38,474 nt of DNA, taken from the NCBI GenBank assembly GCA_003235555.1, contig QJVY01000120.1, forward strand, positions 1 through 38,474. Reading direction: 5' to 3'. Origin of the DNA: Ignavibacteria bacterium (GTDB taxonomy: Bacteria > Bacteroidota > Ignavibacteria > UBA10030 > SZUA-254). The translations under genes were made by a program, and so were the position numbers. Shown here piece after piece: positions 2,082 through 8,572 of this stretch; position 1 is the first letter of the stretch, and each line of letters starts with the position of its first letter. The notes beneath the pieces were generated by a model that saw only the letters and a list, made by a program, of their open reading frames with translations, was not told the DNA's origin and searched no databases.

Positions 2082-2344
2082 AGAGGCGAACCGCCGTTAC
2101 TGCCCTGCTGATGCTCTGCACGCTTGTTCTCACGGTGCCGGCATCGGCCTGCCCCAGTTGTTACGGACAGGCGGAAGGCCCGGTCATCGACGGGATGAAT
2201 TCCGCGATCGGCGCCATGATCGGGATCGTCGGATTCGTCCTCTCCGGTTTCGTCGTCATGTTTATCGCCATCGGCAAACGGACACGTCAGATGAATCAAC
2301 CGCCCGCCATCGGGCCGGCAATCAACGATAAAGGAGTGTCGTAA
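2078..2344 (+). CDS. small secreted/membrane protein with CPSC motif (signal peptide + one TM)
   Basis: In-frame ATG at 2078 overlapping the previous stop (ATGA); [31 protein letters not shown]... then TM; stop overlaps coxB start. Confidence 0.7.
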
Positions 2345-3702
2345 TGGAAAAGTTTCTGGGTCTGCCGCCCGACGCGGCCGCACACGGCGGTGAGATCGAT
2401 TTTCTCATCGGCCTCGTGCACTGGTTGATGTTCGCCCTGTTCGCCGGCTGGGGGATCTACTTCGTGTTCGCCCTCATCCGCTTCAGGTCCTCGAAAAACA
2501 CCACCGCGAGCTATCACGGCGTAAAGGGCCACTACTCCACCTACGTGGAAGTCGCCGTCATCGTGGTGGAGGCCGTTCTTCTGGTTGCCTTCTCGATTCC
2601 CATCTGGGCAAAACGCGTTGACGCGTTTCCCGCGGAGGAGAAATCGACCGTCGTGCGCATCGTCGCCGAACAGTTCGCCTGGAACGTCCACTATCCGGGC
2701 CCGGACGGGATCTTCGGCAGGACCGCCCTTGAACTCGTGGGGACCGATAATCCCCTCGGCCTCGACCGTTCCGACCCGGCGGCCAAGGATGATATCGCCA
2801 CCATCAATCAGTTCAACGTCCCCGTGGGAAAACCGGTGGTCATCCACCTTTCCTCCAAGGATGTCATTCACAGCCTGAACCTCCCGGCATTCCGCGTGAA
2901 GCAGGACGCGGTCCCCGGTCTGAACATCCCCGTCTGGTTCACCCCCACGAAAACCACCCAGGCCATACGCGAGGAGATGACGACCACGTTCGACGTCTCG
3001 GGCGCTGTGGCCGGCGAGACCACGCTGCGGCTGCCCGCCGTCGAGACCGTCAGGCTGGAGAAAGGCGTCGCACACGACGGGATGATCCTGACGTCGGACG
3101 TCGAAGACCGCGAGGAGTCCACCGTCATGTACGCCGGCGATGAACTTTCCGCGGACAACGTGGAGCTGATGATCGAATCCGGCATCGGCGAGGTTCATGC
3201 GAGGCTGAAAACCAACTTCGACCGGTACATCTCGCTGGCCGACTATTCCGACGGTGAGGGCAACTCCATCATCGCGAAACATGAATCGTTCGGTCCGGAC
3301 GCGGTGACGGAATTGCTGCGGGCCGGGATCACCGAGGTCGCGGCGCGCAGGCGCTCGACCCTCGATCCGTGGATGGTCATGGAAACGCTGAACGGCTCCG
3401 ACGGGTCCCCCATCGTCACGAAGGGAGACTACCTCTCGGAGGAACAGATCACCGCCGTCGCCGCGATGGGTGGGAAGACCATCCTCGTCGCCCCGTTCAC
3501 GCCGACCGAGATCGCCTGCGCCCAGCTCTGCGGGCTGGGTCATTACCGCATGCGCGGATACATGGATGTCCTGACCGCCGATGAATTCAGGACCTGGATG
3601 GATGAACAGGTTTCGATGGTCCGCGCGATGTACGGCGGCCCCGCCGGAAGCGAACCCGGTCAGCTCAGCACCGGCGACGGCCCGGAGGAGCAGGAGAATT
3701 GA
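2344..3702 (+). CDS. coxB: cytochrome c oxidase subunit II with a large repeat-containing insertion in the CuA domain
   Basis: N-terminal TM hairpin, [20 protein letters not shown], and CuA motif [12 protein letters not shown]; ~175 aa insertion between them. Confidence 0.94.
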
Positions 3703-4742
3703 CGTTTCACCGGGGCCTCCATCGTTTCGCCGTCCTGACGGCGTTCTCCACGTTTCTGCTGATTATCGCGGGTGGTCTGGTCACCTCCACCGGTTCCGGG
3801 CTTTCCGTCCCCGACTGGCCGAACACCTACGGCCGGTTCATGTTCGCGTATCCCATCGATGACATGGTCGGCGGGATTTTTTACGAACACTCACACCGCA
3901 TGATCGCCAGCGTGGTGGGGTTCCTGACCGTGATCCTGACAATCTGGGTCTGGAGGAGGGAACAACGACGGTGGGTAAAAAACCTCACACTCCTCGCGCT
4001 CCTCTCCGTCATACTCCAGGGAGTCCTCGGAGGGATCACGGTACTCTACCTCCTCCCGACGGCGGTATCCGTCGCCCACGCGACACTCGCCCAGACTTTT
4101 TTCGTTCTCGTCTCCTCGATCGCCCTCGTGACGTCGCGCTGGTGGATCGAACGGCCGTCACCCGCCCCCGGCACGGCATCCCCCGGTCAGGCCTCCCTGA
4201 CCACTCTCGCCGCGGGCGCATCCCTCATGGTCTGGGTGCAACTCGTACTCGGCGCGGTCATGCGACATACGGCCTCGGGGCTCGCCGTTCCTGATTTTCC
4301 TCTGGCGTACGGTTCGCTGTTCCCCTCCCTCTCCCCGCAGGCCCTGCAGCACTACACTGAAACGCTCATCCGCGACGATATCCGGATCGCCGCGGACGGA
4401 CCCGTGGCGGCGGGCCAGATCTTCATTCACCTCCTCCACCGGTACTGGGGAATCTTTACGGGTGCGGTTCTCTGCTGGACGGCCGTCAGGTCCATGCGCT
4501 CCCCGGGGCGGGTTCCCCGCCTCGGCGGCCTCGGGAGCATCATGGCAGTCCTGACCCTCCTCCAGGTCTCGCTCGGCGCCGCGACGGTCCTCCTGAGAAA
4601 ACCGGTTGAAGTGGCCACGGCCCACGTCGCCCTCGGGGCCTTCCTGCTCGTCGTCAGCGTCCTCACCGCACTCCACGCGTACCGGTTGTCCGGTCACCGG
4701 GGGTTTGTCCCGGCCACGCTCGCACGCGAGGGGGTGTCATGA
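3699..4742 (+). CDS. ctaA: heme A synthase (COX15/CtaA)
   Basis: [20 protein letters not shown] and HVALGA histidine motifs; TTG start overlapping coxB stop. Confidence 0.92.
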
Positions 4743-5671
4743 ATACCGGCGTCAAGATCATCGAACGTCCCCTCGCGCGAATCGGTGTCCGCGCTGTCGA
4801 TTACGTTACGCTGCTGAAACCGGAGTTGACAGGCCTGTCCGTTCTGACGGCACTCTTCGGAACGTTTCTGGCCCAGTCTGCCGGGTTCGAACTCCGGCCC
4901 TTCCTCGTGGTTCTCGCAGGTACGATGATGGTCGGCGGGGGTGCCGGGGCGCTGAACCAGTTTATTGAACGGCGCGAAGACGCGCTCATGAAAAGGACCG
5001 AACGGCGGCCACTCCCTTCCGCGCGGGTCCGTCCGGTCGAGGCCCTGCTGTTCGGCTCGCTCCTGTCGGTCGCGGGCGTCGTCCTCCTCACGGTTGCGGG
5101 ATCTTTTCTCGCGGGAACGGTCGCGTTCCTGACCTCCGCTTCGTACCTGTTCCTCTACACGCCGCTCAAGAAATACACCCCCGCGGCCACATTCGTCGGG
5201 GGAATTCCCGGCGCCCTTCCACCCGTCATCGGGTGGACGGTGGTGCGGGCCGACATTACGATCGAACCGGTCCTGTTGTTCCTGATCCTGTTCGCGTGGC
5301 AGATGCCGCATTTTTACTCACTTGCGTGGCTGTACCGGAAGGATTACGAGCGTGCCGGGTTTTCGATCCTCACCGTCGGTGATTCCACCGGACGGCGGAC
5401 CGCGCGAAGGATGTTTTTCTATTCGGCGCTGCTCCTCGCCCTCATGCCGGCGTCCCTCGCAGCGGGGATGACCACCCCTCTCTCGTTCGCCGTCACCCTC
5501 CTGCTCGGTGCCGGGATGCTTGCCCTTTCGTGGATGTTCCTGCGGAACTGCGGCCGCGCGGAATCCGAGGCTGGTGTCAAATCCATGAACGTCATCGCAC
5601 GACGCCTTTTTTTCGCCTCCCTGGTCTACATTCCGGTCCTCATCCTGGTCATCTCGGCGGGCAGATTGTGA
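4739..5671 (+). CDS. ctaB: protoheme IX farnesyltransferase
   Basis: LNQFIERREDALMKRTERRPLPSAR, YTPLKKYTPAATFVGGIPGALPPVIGW; ATGA overlap with ctaA. Confidence 0.95.
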   Translation: MNTGVKIIERPLARIGVRAVDYVTLLKPELTGLSVLTALFGTFLAQSAGFELRPFLVVLAGTMMVGGGAGALNQFIERREDALMKRTERRPLPSARVRPVEALLFGSLLSVAGVVLLTVAGSFLAGTVAFLTSASYLFLYTPLKKYTPAATFVGGIPGALPPVIGWTVVRADITIEPVLLFLILFAWQMPHFYSLAWLYRKDYERAGFSILTVGDSTGRRTARRMFFYSALLLALMPASLAAGMTTPLSFAVTLLLGAGMLALSWMFLRNCGRAESEAGVKSMNVIARRLFFASLVYIPVLILVISAGRL

Positions 5672-6721: not shown

Positions 6722-7551
6722 ACGCGGGCGCGAGACCGCCGGCACCCGAAGGCGGGAGACCCACTGTCCGGTCCGGCTTCATCCCGGGCGCGGCCGTCCT
6801 GTGGAAACGTGAACTTCTGCATTTCCTGCGCCAACGGTCAAGGCTCGTCGGGTTCATCGGTTCCCCGGTCATCTTCTGGCTCGTTATCGGGTCGGGTTTC
6901 AACCGCTCCTTTTCCTACATCGGAGCCAGGCCCGACATTTCATACCTCGAATTCTATTTCCCCGGGACCATCGTCCTGACGATGCTTTTCACCGCGATCT
7001 TCGCCTCCATTTCGATCATCGAAGATCGTCACTCCGGATTTCTCCAGGGCGTCCTCGTGGCTCCCGTACCCAGGATCAGCATCGCCTCCGGGAAGATCAT
7101 GGGAGGAGCAACCCTTGCCCTCATCCAGGCGGTGTTGCTGCTTTTTCTCGTGCCCGTCCTGGGGATCGACATGACCGCGGAAAGTATAGTGGCCACGCTT
7201 CTCTCCCTGACGGTTCTCGCGGTCGGCCTGGCGGGGCTGGGGTTCGTGATCGCCTGGAGGATGGATTCGACTCAGGGGTTCCACGCGGTGATGAATCTCG
7301 TCCTGATCCCCCTCTGGCTCCTCTCCGGTGCGCTCTTCCCCGTGCACGGGGCCGCCGGCTGGATGGAGAAAATCATGCTCTGCAACCCGCTCTACTACGG
7401 GATGTCTGCGTTCCGGCAATCCCTCTATCTCGGCACGGTCCCGGAACCGCAGGAATTCCTCTCCCTCCCATGGAATTTTCTGATTTTTTCCATATTTTCA
7501 GTCATCATGCTTTCTCTCTCCGCATGGTCAGCAAAAACACGACGCATATGA
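6718..7551 (+). CDS. ABC-2 type transporter permease
   Basis: Multiple TM segments, SGFLQGVLVAPVPR and LIPLWLLSGALFPV motifs; overlaps ATPase by 4 nt. Confidence 0.92.
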   Translation: MNAGARPPAPEGGRPTVRSGFIPGAAVLWKRELLHFLRQRSRLVGFIGSPVIFWLVIGSGFNRSFSYIGARPDISYLEFYFPGTIVLTMLFTAIFASISIIEDRHSGFLQGVLVAPVPRISIASGKIMGGATLALIQAVLLLFLVPVLGIDMTAESIVATLLSLTVLAVGLAGLGFVIAWRMDSTQGFHAVMNLVLIPLWLLSGALFPVHGAAGWMEKIMLCNPLYYGMSAFRQSLYLGTVPEPQEFLSLPWNFLIFSIFSVIMLSLSAWSAKTRRI

Positions 7552-8156
7552 CAGACCGAAAACAACCCACCTTTCGATGGTACCTCGGGGCAATCCTTGC
7601 CGGAGGACTCGTGGTGACCGTCGCCCTTATTCTCGCGGACATCGGTCGTAACCGCCCTTCTCTTCCTGAACTCGGCAGTGTCCCTCCCTTCACCCTCATC
7701 GCAGAAACGAGCGACACCGTGGATCAGTCCCTCTTTGACGGCAAAATCTCGGTGGTGGATTTCGTCTTCACCTCATGCGCCGGAATCTGCCCCATGATGA
7801 GTGGCAGGATGGCCTGGATGCAGGAAGAATTTGACGACCAACCGTCGATCCAGCTCGTGTCCATCTCCGTCGATCCGGAAACCGATACACCGGAGGTGTT
7901 GAGGGAGTACGGGAAACGCTACGGTGCACGCCCGGGAAGGTGGACGTTTCTCACCGGACCCAAACCCCTCATCTACGACATCACCAGGCAGGGCTTTCAC
8001 CTCGGGCTCGACACCGAGGGTGAAAACGCCATCATTCACAGCCAGAAATTCGTCCTGGTGGACGCCCGTGGCGCCATAAGGGGCTATTATGACAGTGACA
8101 GTACCGACGCGATGGACAACCTGCGTGACGACGCGATCATGCTCGCCCGTAAATGA
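7548..8156 (+). CDS. SCO1/SenC/PrrC-type copper chaperone
   Basis: VVDFVFTSCAGICPMMSGRM (CxxxCP), SVDPETDTPEVL, IIHSQKFVLVD; start chosen at ATG 7548 overlapping the permease stop. Confidence 0.93.
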   Translation: MTDRKQPTFRWYLGAILAGGLVVTVALILADIGRNRPSLPELGSVPPFTLIAETSDTVDQSLFDGKISVVDFVFTSCAGICPMMSGRMAWMQEEFDDQPSIQLVSISVDPETDTPEVLREYGKRYGARPGRWTFLTGPKPLIYDITRQGFHLGLDTEGENAIIHSQKFVLVDARGAIRGYYDSDSTDAMDNLRDDAIMLARK

Positions 8157-8572
8157 CCGAATGGCTCCCCGCCCTTAACGCGTGTCTGAACCTCACTTCC
8201 GCGGTCCTGCTCCTGAAGGGAAGGTCGAGGATCCGCGCCGGGGACCGCACGGGGCACCGGAAGTTCATGCTCGCGGCCGTCTGGGTTTCCGTGGGTTTCC
8301 TCACCTCCTACCTCGTGTACCATTACCTCCACGGCTCCACCAAATTTCCGGGTGAGGGGATCATCCGACCCCTCTATTTCGCCATGCTGACCTCCCATAC
8401 GATCCTCGCCGCGGCGAACGTCCCCCTGGTGGCTATTGCACTCTACCACGCCCTCGGAGAGCGGTTTCCCACCCACAAGCGGATCGCCCGCTGGGCCTAC
8501 CCCGTATGGGTCTACGTCTCGGTAACCGGTGTGTTGATCTACCTGCTCCTCTATCAGGTCTACCGTCCCTGA
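8153..8572 (+). CDS. DUF420 (CtaM-like) membrane protein
   Basis: LNLTSAVLLLKGR...GHRKFMLAA...LVYHYLHGSTKFPGEG...RIARWAYPVWVYVSVTGVLIYLLLY, typical DUF420. Confidence 0.88.
   Translation: MTEWLPALNACLNLTSAVLLLKGRSRIRAGDRTGHRKFMLAAVWVSVGFLTSYLVYHYLHGSTKFPGEGIIRPLYFAMLTSHTILAAANVPLVAIALYHALGERFPTHKRIARWAYPVWVYVSVTGVLIYLLLYQVYRP

Follow-up and report, generated by a model that had tools for sequence, protein, structure and literature searches.

BBM2/BEAN-like tandem modules inserted between the CuA ligands of a bacterial cytochrome c oxidase subunit II

The module described under the names BBM2 and BEAN is known as an old insertion in RNA polymerase (RNAP) and in a few other proteins (PMC11515920). 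The betai4 insertion of RNAP beta was predicted to contain one to six tandem BBM2 repeats (PMC2939025), and we equate BBM2 with BEAN because both names denote this betai4-type insertion. Besides RNAP beta and beta', the hosts named in PMC11515920 are MoeA, archaeal uL10, OKR decarboxylases and a putative ferredoxin. According to the same paper, the module is terminal in MoeA, the ferredoxin and the decarboxylases and inserted in uL10, and its insertion into the polymerase and uL10 is presumed to have slowed down once an early evolutionary phase was over. Subunit II of cytochrome c oxidase (COX2) is not mentioned as a host in the accessible portions of PMC2939025 or PMC11515920, and the open-access literature yielded no prior report of a BEAN/BBM2 module, or of an insert of the kind described below, in COX2. 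Large COX2 insertions as such have been described (PMC5374615): ciliates have an enlarged COX2, and in Campsomeris wasps and in protists the protein is split. Unlike the insert reported here, these interruptions fall after the haem patch (Trp105) and before the CuA half, not among the CuA ligands, and PMC5374615 does not present them as BEAN modules.

The window analysed here, a stretch of 38,474 nucleotides from an Ignavibacteria bacterium, carries a forward-strand cox cluster in which ctaD is followed by the genes for subunits III and IV, a CPxCYG protein and CoxB, and then by haem A synthesis genes, an ABC pair and the SCO and DUF420 genes. The contig starts within ctaD (subunit I), the 3' part of which (2–958) was recognised as an ORF by sequence inspection, followed by the genes for subunit III (968–1558; Pfam COX3, 1.9e-20) and subunit IV (1568–1876; Pfam COX4_pro, 5.4e-12). 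The ctaA-like and ctaB-like genes (3699–5671) and the ABC pair were likewise named by inspection of their ORFs, and the cluster closes with genes for a SCO1/SenC copper chaperone and a DUF420 protein (7470–8572; Pfam SCO1-SenC, 3.5e-26; DUF420, 1.7e-42). Between subunit IV and coxB, positions 2078–2344 encode a small, apparently exported CPSCYG protein with a hydrophobic segment, which matches no Pfam family and recurs in the relatives L160 and L161.

The coxB gene (2344–3702, forward strand) is an intact ORF encoding the 452-aa subunit II of an aa3-type cytochrome c oxidase. It matches Pfam COX2 at 1.4e-8 and NCBIfam CoxB (TIGR02866) at 5.9e-29, the latter match being split over two stretches and under the model's own cut-off. 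With canonical COX2 (Paracoccus, 1ar1; Thermus caa3, 2yev) the protein shares two transmembrane helices, the CuA domain and the full ligand set, comprising H176 (2869), C392 (3517), C396 (3529), H400 (3541) and M403 (3550). The resulting pattern, H176 followed by C392-x3-C396-x3-H400-x2-M403, is invariant in 45 aligned CoxB homologues. Compared with the canonical proteins, this CoxB has 181 extra residues between the CuA histidine and the first CuA cysteine, a phenylalanine in place of the electron-entry tryptophan and no fused cytochrome c domain. The initial annotation had reported that all ligands (H, C-x3-C, H, M) are retained and that His176 and Cys392 are 216 aa apart, as opposed to about 35 in canonical COX2; comparison with the homologues bears out both observations, the distance being 35 in most relatives.

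Alignment to insert-free homologues places the inserted segment at residues ~208–389 (2965–3510, ~181 aa), between the CuA-domain strand ending in VWFTPTKTT and the strand EIACAQLCG, that is, in the loop preceding the first CuA cysteine. The insertion had originally been assigned to 2980–3516; it is real, and its refined extent begins with a non-repeat leader of ~38 aa (2965–3081), which is conserved, with an LP motif, among the three-unit forms (alignment of ten three-unit proteins). Three units follow at 3082–3213, 3226–3354 and 3370–3501, matching the unit profile with E-values of 6.0e-13, 7.5e-16 and 4.1e-14, respectively. Gapless 36-aa units begin at residues 249, 297 and 345, and the exact 144-nt (48-aa) period noted in the initial annotation was recovered by offset scoring. 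The gapless BLOSUM62 score at offset 48 was +44 for residues 213–391, compared with -106 ± 23 for shuffles, and none of 5,000 shuffles of the insert attained +44 at any offset (shuffle maximum 28). Identity between unit pairs is low (9/36, 6/36 and 5/36); profiles of units 1, 2 and 3 built from ten species are mutually homologous (hhalign 98.7–99.3%), and each of them is also matched, at 98.4–99.3%, by the one unit that shorter relatives carry.

An AF2 model of CoxB computed from the alignment of 45 homologues (mean pLDDT 90.2) predicts all three units with high confidence, at pLDDT 93–97 across the insert, and gives each a beta-beta-alpha-beta arrangement. In unit 1, the predicted strands span residues 247–249, 260–262 and 283–288, with the helix at 270–278; the corresponding elements are 295–297, 308–310, 331–336 and 318–326 in unit 2, and 343–345, 356–358, 379–384 and 366–374 in unit 3. 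The order of elements is the same when the insert is modelled alone. Its net charge is negative, from -3 to -18, in all 21 proteins tested, which parallels the highly acidic solvent-exposed surface described for betai4 (PMC2939025, PMC11515920). The CoxB inserts compared contain no conserved Cys or His, and a metal-binding role was therefore rejected.

As a single sequence, the insert matched nothing significantly in Pfam, NCBIfam or the PDB, where RpoC appeared only at E 0.96; a link to RNAP emerges only from a profile of units drawn from many species. Searched against 177,635 PDB sequences, this profile (41 units) ranked RpoC (RNAP beta') at the top with E=5.9e-6, and the reversed profile gave no PDB match below 0.16. 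By hhalign, the unit profile reached 96.4% with RpoC and 94.5% with RpoB, compared with less than 1% for reversed decoys and 96.6% for RpoC with RpoB. The polymerase segments compared had been picked through unit-profile matches, and the unselected PDB search is the cleaner test. A Foldseek search with the insert-only model gave RNAP beta in 50 of the 50 matches listed, among them 3lti, the crystal structure of Escherichia coli beta2-betai4. Their TM-scores are low (0.22–0.30), so that the agreement holds for single units and may not extend to the packing of the entire array. The resemblance to RNAP beta/beta' put forward in the initial annotation is thus supported by profile and structure searches, with matches to both RpoB and RpoC and clean reversed controls. 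The accompanying link to RNAP in particular proved too narrow, the BBM2/BEAN module being found also in MoeA and other proteins (PMC2939025, PMC11515920).

We estimate the probability that the CoxB units are BBM2/BEAN modules at roughly 0.9. In PMC11515920, an HHalign probability above 70% with known members serves as the mark of BEAN homology, a value that the unit profile exceeds with both polymerase subunits, and the best structural matches listed are likewise all known members. The BEAN core is described there as two brackets with the order alpha-beta-beta-beta-beta-alpha. The DSSP string of the AF2 model gives the same order, as far as order alone is concerned, with four short strands predicted between helices 270–278 and 318–326 and again between helices 318–326 and 366–374. 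The published clustering used full-domain BLAST p below 1e-12 (PMC11515920), which the CoxB insert would probably not reach directly because its single-sequence search found RpoC so weakly. Just one of the 41 CoxB units has the TGD/E motif characteristic of RNAP-beta BEANs, which gives no indication of an origin from RNAP beta, and the CoxB profile scores RpoC above RpoB. The likeness to the RNAP modules accordingly concerns the profile and the predicted fold; descent from RNAP would be a separate claim, going beyond these comparisons.

Convergence on a short beta-beta-alpha-beta motif, as opposed to homology, appears quite improbable to us. The units measure only about 44 aa and share 18% identity with RpoC in the profile alignment, and the BEAN authors could not build a supported phylogeny either (PMC11515920); yet whole-PDB sequence and structure searches both rank RNAP first, the reversed control is empty, and the unit–RpoC probability is the same as that between RpoC and RpoB. 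In their layout, too, the RNAP and CoxB arrays are alike, both consisting of tandem units in a loop of a large enzyme (PMC2939025, PMC11515920), the difference being that the CoxB host is an exported respiratory subunit. The same difference separates CoxB from MoeA, uL10, the decarboxylases and the ferredoxin, which are cytoplasmic and with which it shares the presence of one small module on unrelated hosts (PMC11515920). CoxB would add both a host and a compartment to those known for this module, here in an exported membrane enzyme of one order of Ignavibacteria-like bacteria. The insertion separates the ligands of CuA, which is among the most conserved metal sites in respiration, by a foreign domain.

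A census of 98 genomes of the order yielded 42 classifiable CoxB genes of the window's type, 37 of which bear the insert: three units are present in 12, one in 25 and none in 5, with no two-unit or four-unit form among the 42. The three-unit proteins comprise every CoxB of this type in the window's family, ten in total, as well as those of G035 and G255 from another family, where two units pass the profile threshold, the third is degenerate and the protein length corresponds to the three-unit layout. The insert-free members of the order are G021, G026, G027, G252 and G253, and no insert was found in outgroups (Acidobacteriota, Calditrichota, Omnitrophota and others). In a tree of the CoxB core, insert-bearing rows cluster, with 4–5 changes needed and weak deep support; rows L060 and L064 were mis-scored as one-unit (wrong His), and the tree is used solely for this clustering. 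Close relatives with an empty site, one unit and three units can be compared, which makes the insertion and the growth of the array traceable on a tree. Presence of the insert in 37 genomes led us to reject an assembly chimera. In G012, coxB (L192, G012:C16:11091-12366) is split into two frames inside the insert leader, reflecting either an assembly error or a real break.

In 29 of 30 cases, a unit has its closest counterpart at the matching position in other species, which marks the triplication as old and led us to reject recent or ongoing tandem duplication. The array triplicated once, long ago. The distance between the CuA histidine and the first cysteine stays at 211–216 in three-unit forms across deep divergences. 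For the insert, dN/dS is about 0.1–0.2 in the majority of close pairs (0.4 for L004/L091), compared with 0.01–0.05 for the CoxB core (0.14 for L004/L091), pairs L173–L183 sharing genomes with L006–L010 and not being independent of them. By these ratios, the insert is under purifying selection.

In the cupredoxin topology, the loop before the first CuA cysteine lies opposite the copper and faces away from the membrane. The array would then project from the periplasmic end of the CuA domain, on the side distal to the membrane and about 20 Å or more from CuA, and because of this distance it should not itself take part in electron transfer. It could act as a rigid acidic arm for docking or tethering, which would hold the oxidase beside its electron donor, with the three-unit form providing a longer arm. 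We propose this periplasmic role tentatively, at somewhat short of even odds; on this reading, the insert is a specific candidate for the way in which these oxidases contact their donor. The electron-entry tryptophan of COX2 proteins that take electrons from soluble cytochrome c (W104 in the bovine and W121 in the Paracoccus protein) is lacking in the window's CoxB: its position (2674–2682, residues 111–113) holds phenylalanine in 44 of 45 members of the CoxB subfamily, with or without insert. This replacement suggests that the donor is not the usual soluble cytochrome c.

The best candidate donor would be a cytochrome bc complex whose c subunit has eight haems, encoded in most insert-bearing genomes. 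In L161 (one unit) and L162 (three units), the ctaD cluster is immediately preceded by genes for a Rieske protein, cytochrome b, a petD-like protein and an octahaem c-type cytochrome with eight CxxCH motifs; the bc regions beside the cox cluster (L161:6448-11812 and L162:6414-11716) also encode a ferredoxin-like protein. Among 40 relatives, a full-length match to the octahaem protein was found in 16 of the 19 insert-bearing genomes, the other three having a match over residues 2–698 (G004), two pieces (G019) or a distant partial match (G032). The window's genome has the gene on a different contig, C106, whose end follows about 100 bases later, and relatives of the protein in insert-free outgroups are longer and at best 33–41% identical. 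This co-occurrence may only mirror shared ancestry, given that the insert-free G026 has the octahaem protein and G032 lacks a close copy; moreover, the octahaem bc genes of L158 and L160 do not adjoin ctaD. That the three BEAN units hold this complex to the oxidase, forming a III–IV supercomplex via the insertion in the CuA domain of subunit II, is the more doubtful part of the proposal. Known III–IV contacts run via subunit III or cytochrome b and offer no precedent for subunit II (PMC8361435).

The main rival to a docking arm is a tolerated surface insertion without a specific partner, located in a permissive loop and kept because it must fold without disturbing CuA. Such an origin would fit the faster divergence of the insert, whose dN is about 1.4 to 10 times that of the CuA core, as expected of a tolerated surface domain, as well as the five insert-free members of the order and the presence of a similar unit in a TonB receptor of the same order. 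The same loop is also 12–14 aa longer in many Acidobacteria, and thus tolerates length change. Neutral arrays would, however, be expected to vary in number, whereas the CoxB arrays contain exactly one or three units, the three-unit spacing stays within 211–216 residues, every unit position keeps its own identity and dN/dS remains low in most close pairs. We regard a tolerated insertion of this kind as somewhat unlikely.

Two further roles would retain a partner and change its identity. The insert could serve as an assembly platform that binds SCO or another periplasmic factor of the cluster, or an oxidase subunit, to load or protect CuA; it directly precedes the CuA cysteine loop, and SCO and DUF420 genes close the cluster. 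The insert-free relative L021, however, has by inspection a comparable gene cluster that includes SCO-like and DUF420-like genes, so that SCO can act without the insert; together with the absence of conserved Cys or His, this makes an assembly platform distinctly unlikely. Docking of alternative complex III (ACIII) has a precedent in the ACIII–oxidase supercomplex of Flavobacterium johnsoniae (PMC8361435), and ActD is found in many genomes of the order, the window's own included. Yet no ActD was detected in seven three-unit genomes (G002, G004, G006, G008, G010, G012 and G035), which led us to reject ACIII as a general partner of the insert, and the ActD-bearing G005, G007 and G013 lack CoxB of the window's type; docking to ACIII is accordingly highly improbable.

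Outside CoxB, the unit profile matches mainly RpoC and RpoB in the relatives' genomes, with further matches to a MoeA (L136, iE 1.4e-5), two short ORFs and the tail of a response regulator. The short ORFs (L119 and L156), of about 116–123 aa and with a GM-x-L opening, presumably resemble the N-terminal region of HD-GYP proteins and are possibly free-standing BEAN-like proteins. The TonB-dependent receptor of G256 (L191:1193-4015, reverse strand) carries its BEAN-like unit at residues 456–487, in the barrel region (iE 2e-8), and a 948-aa ORF of G257, from the same order, also matches the unit profile.
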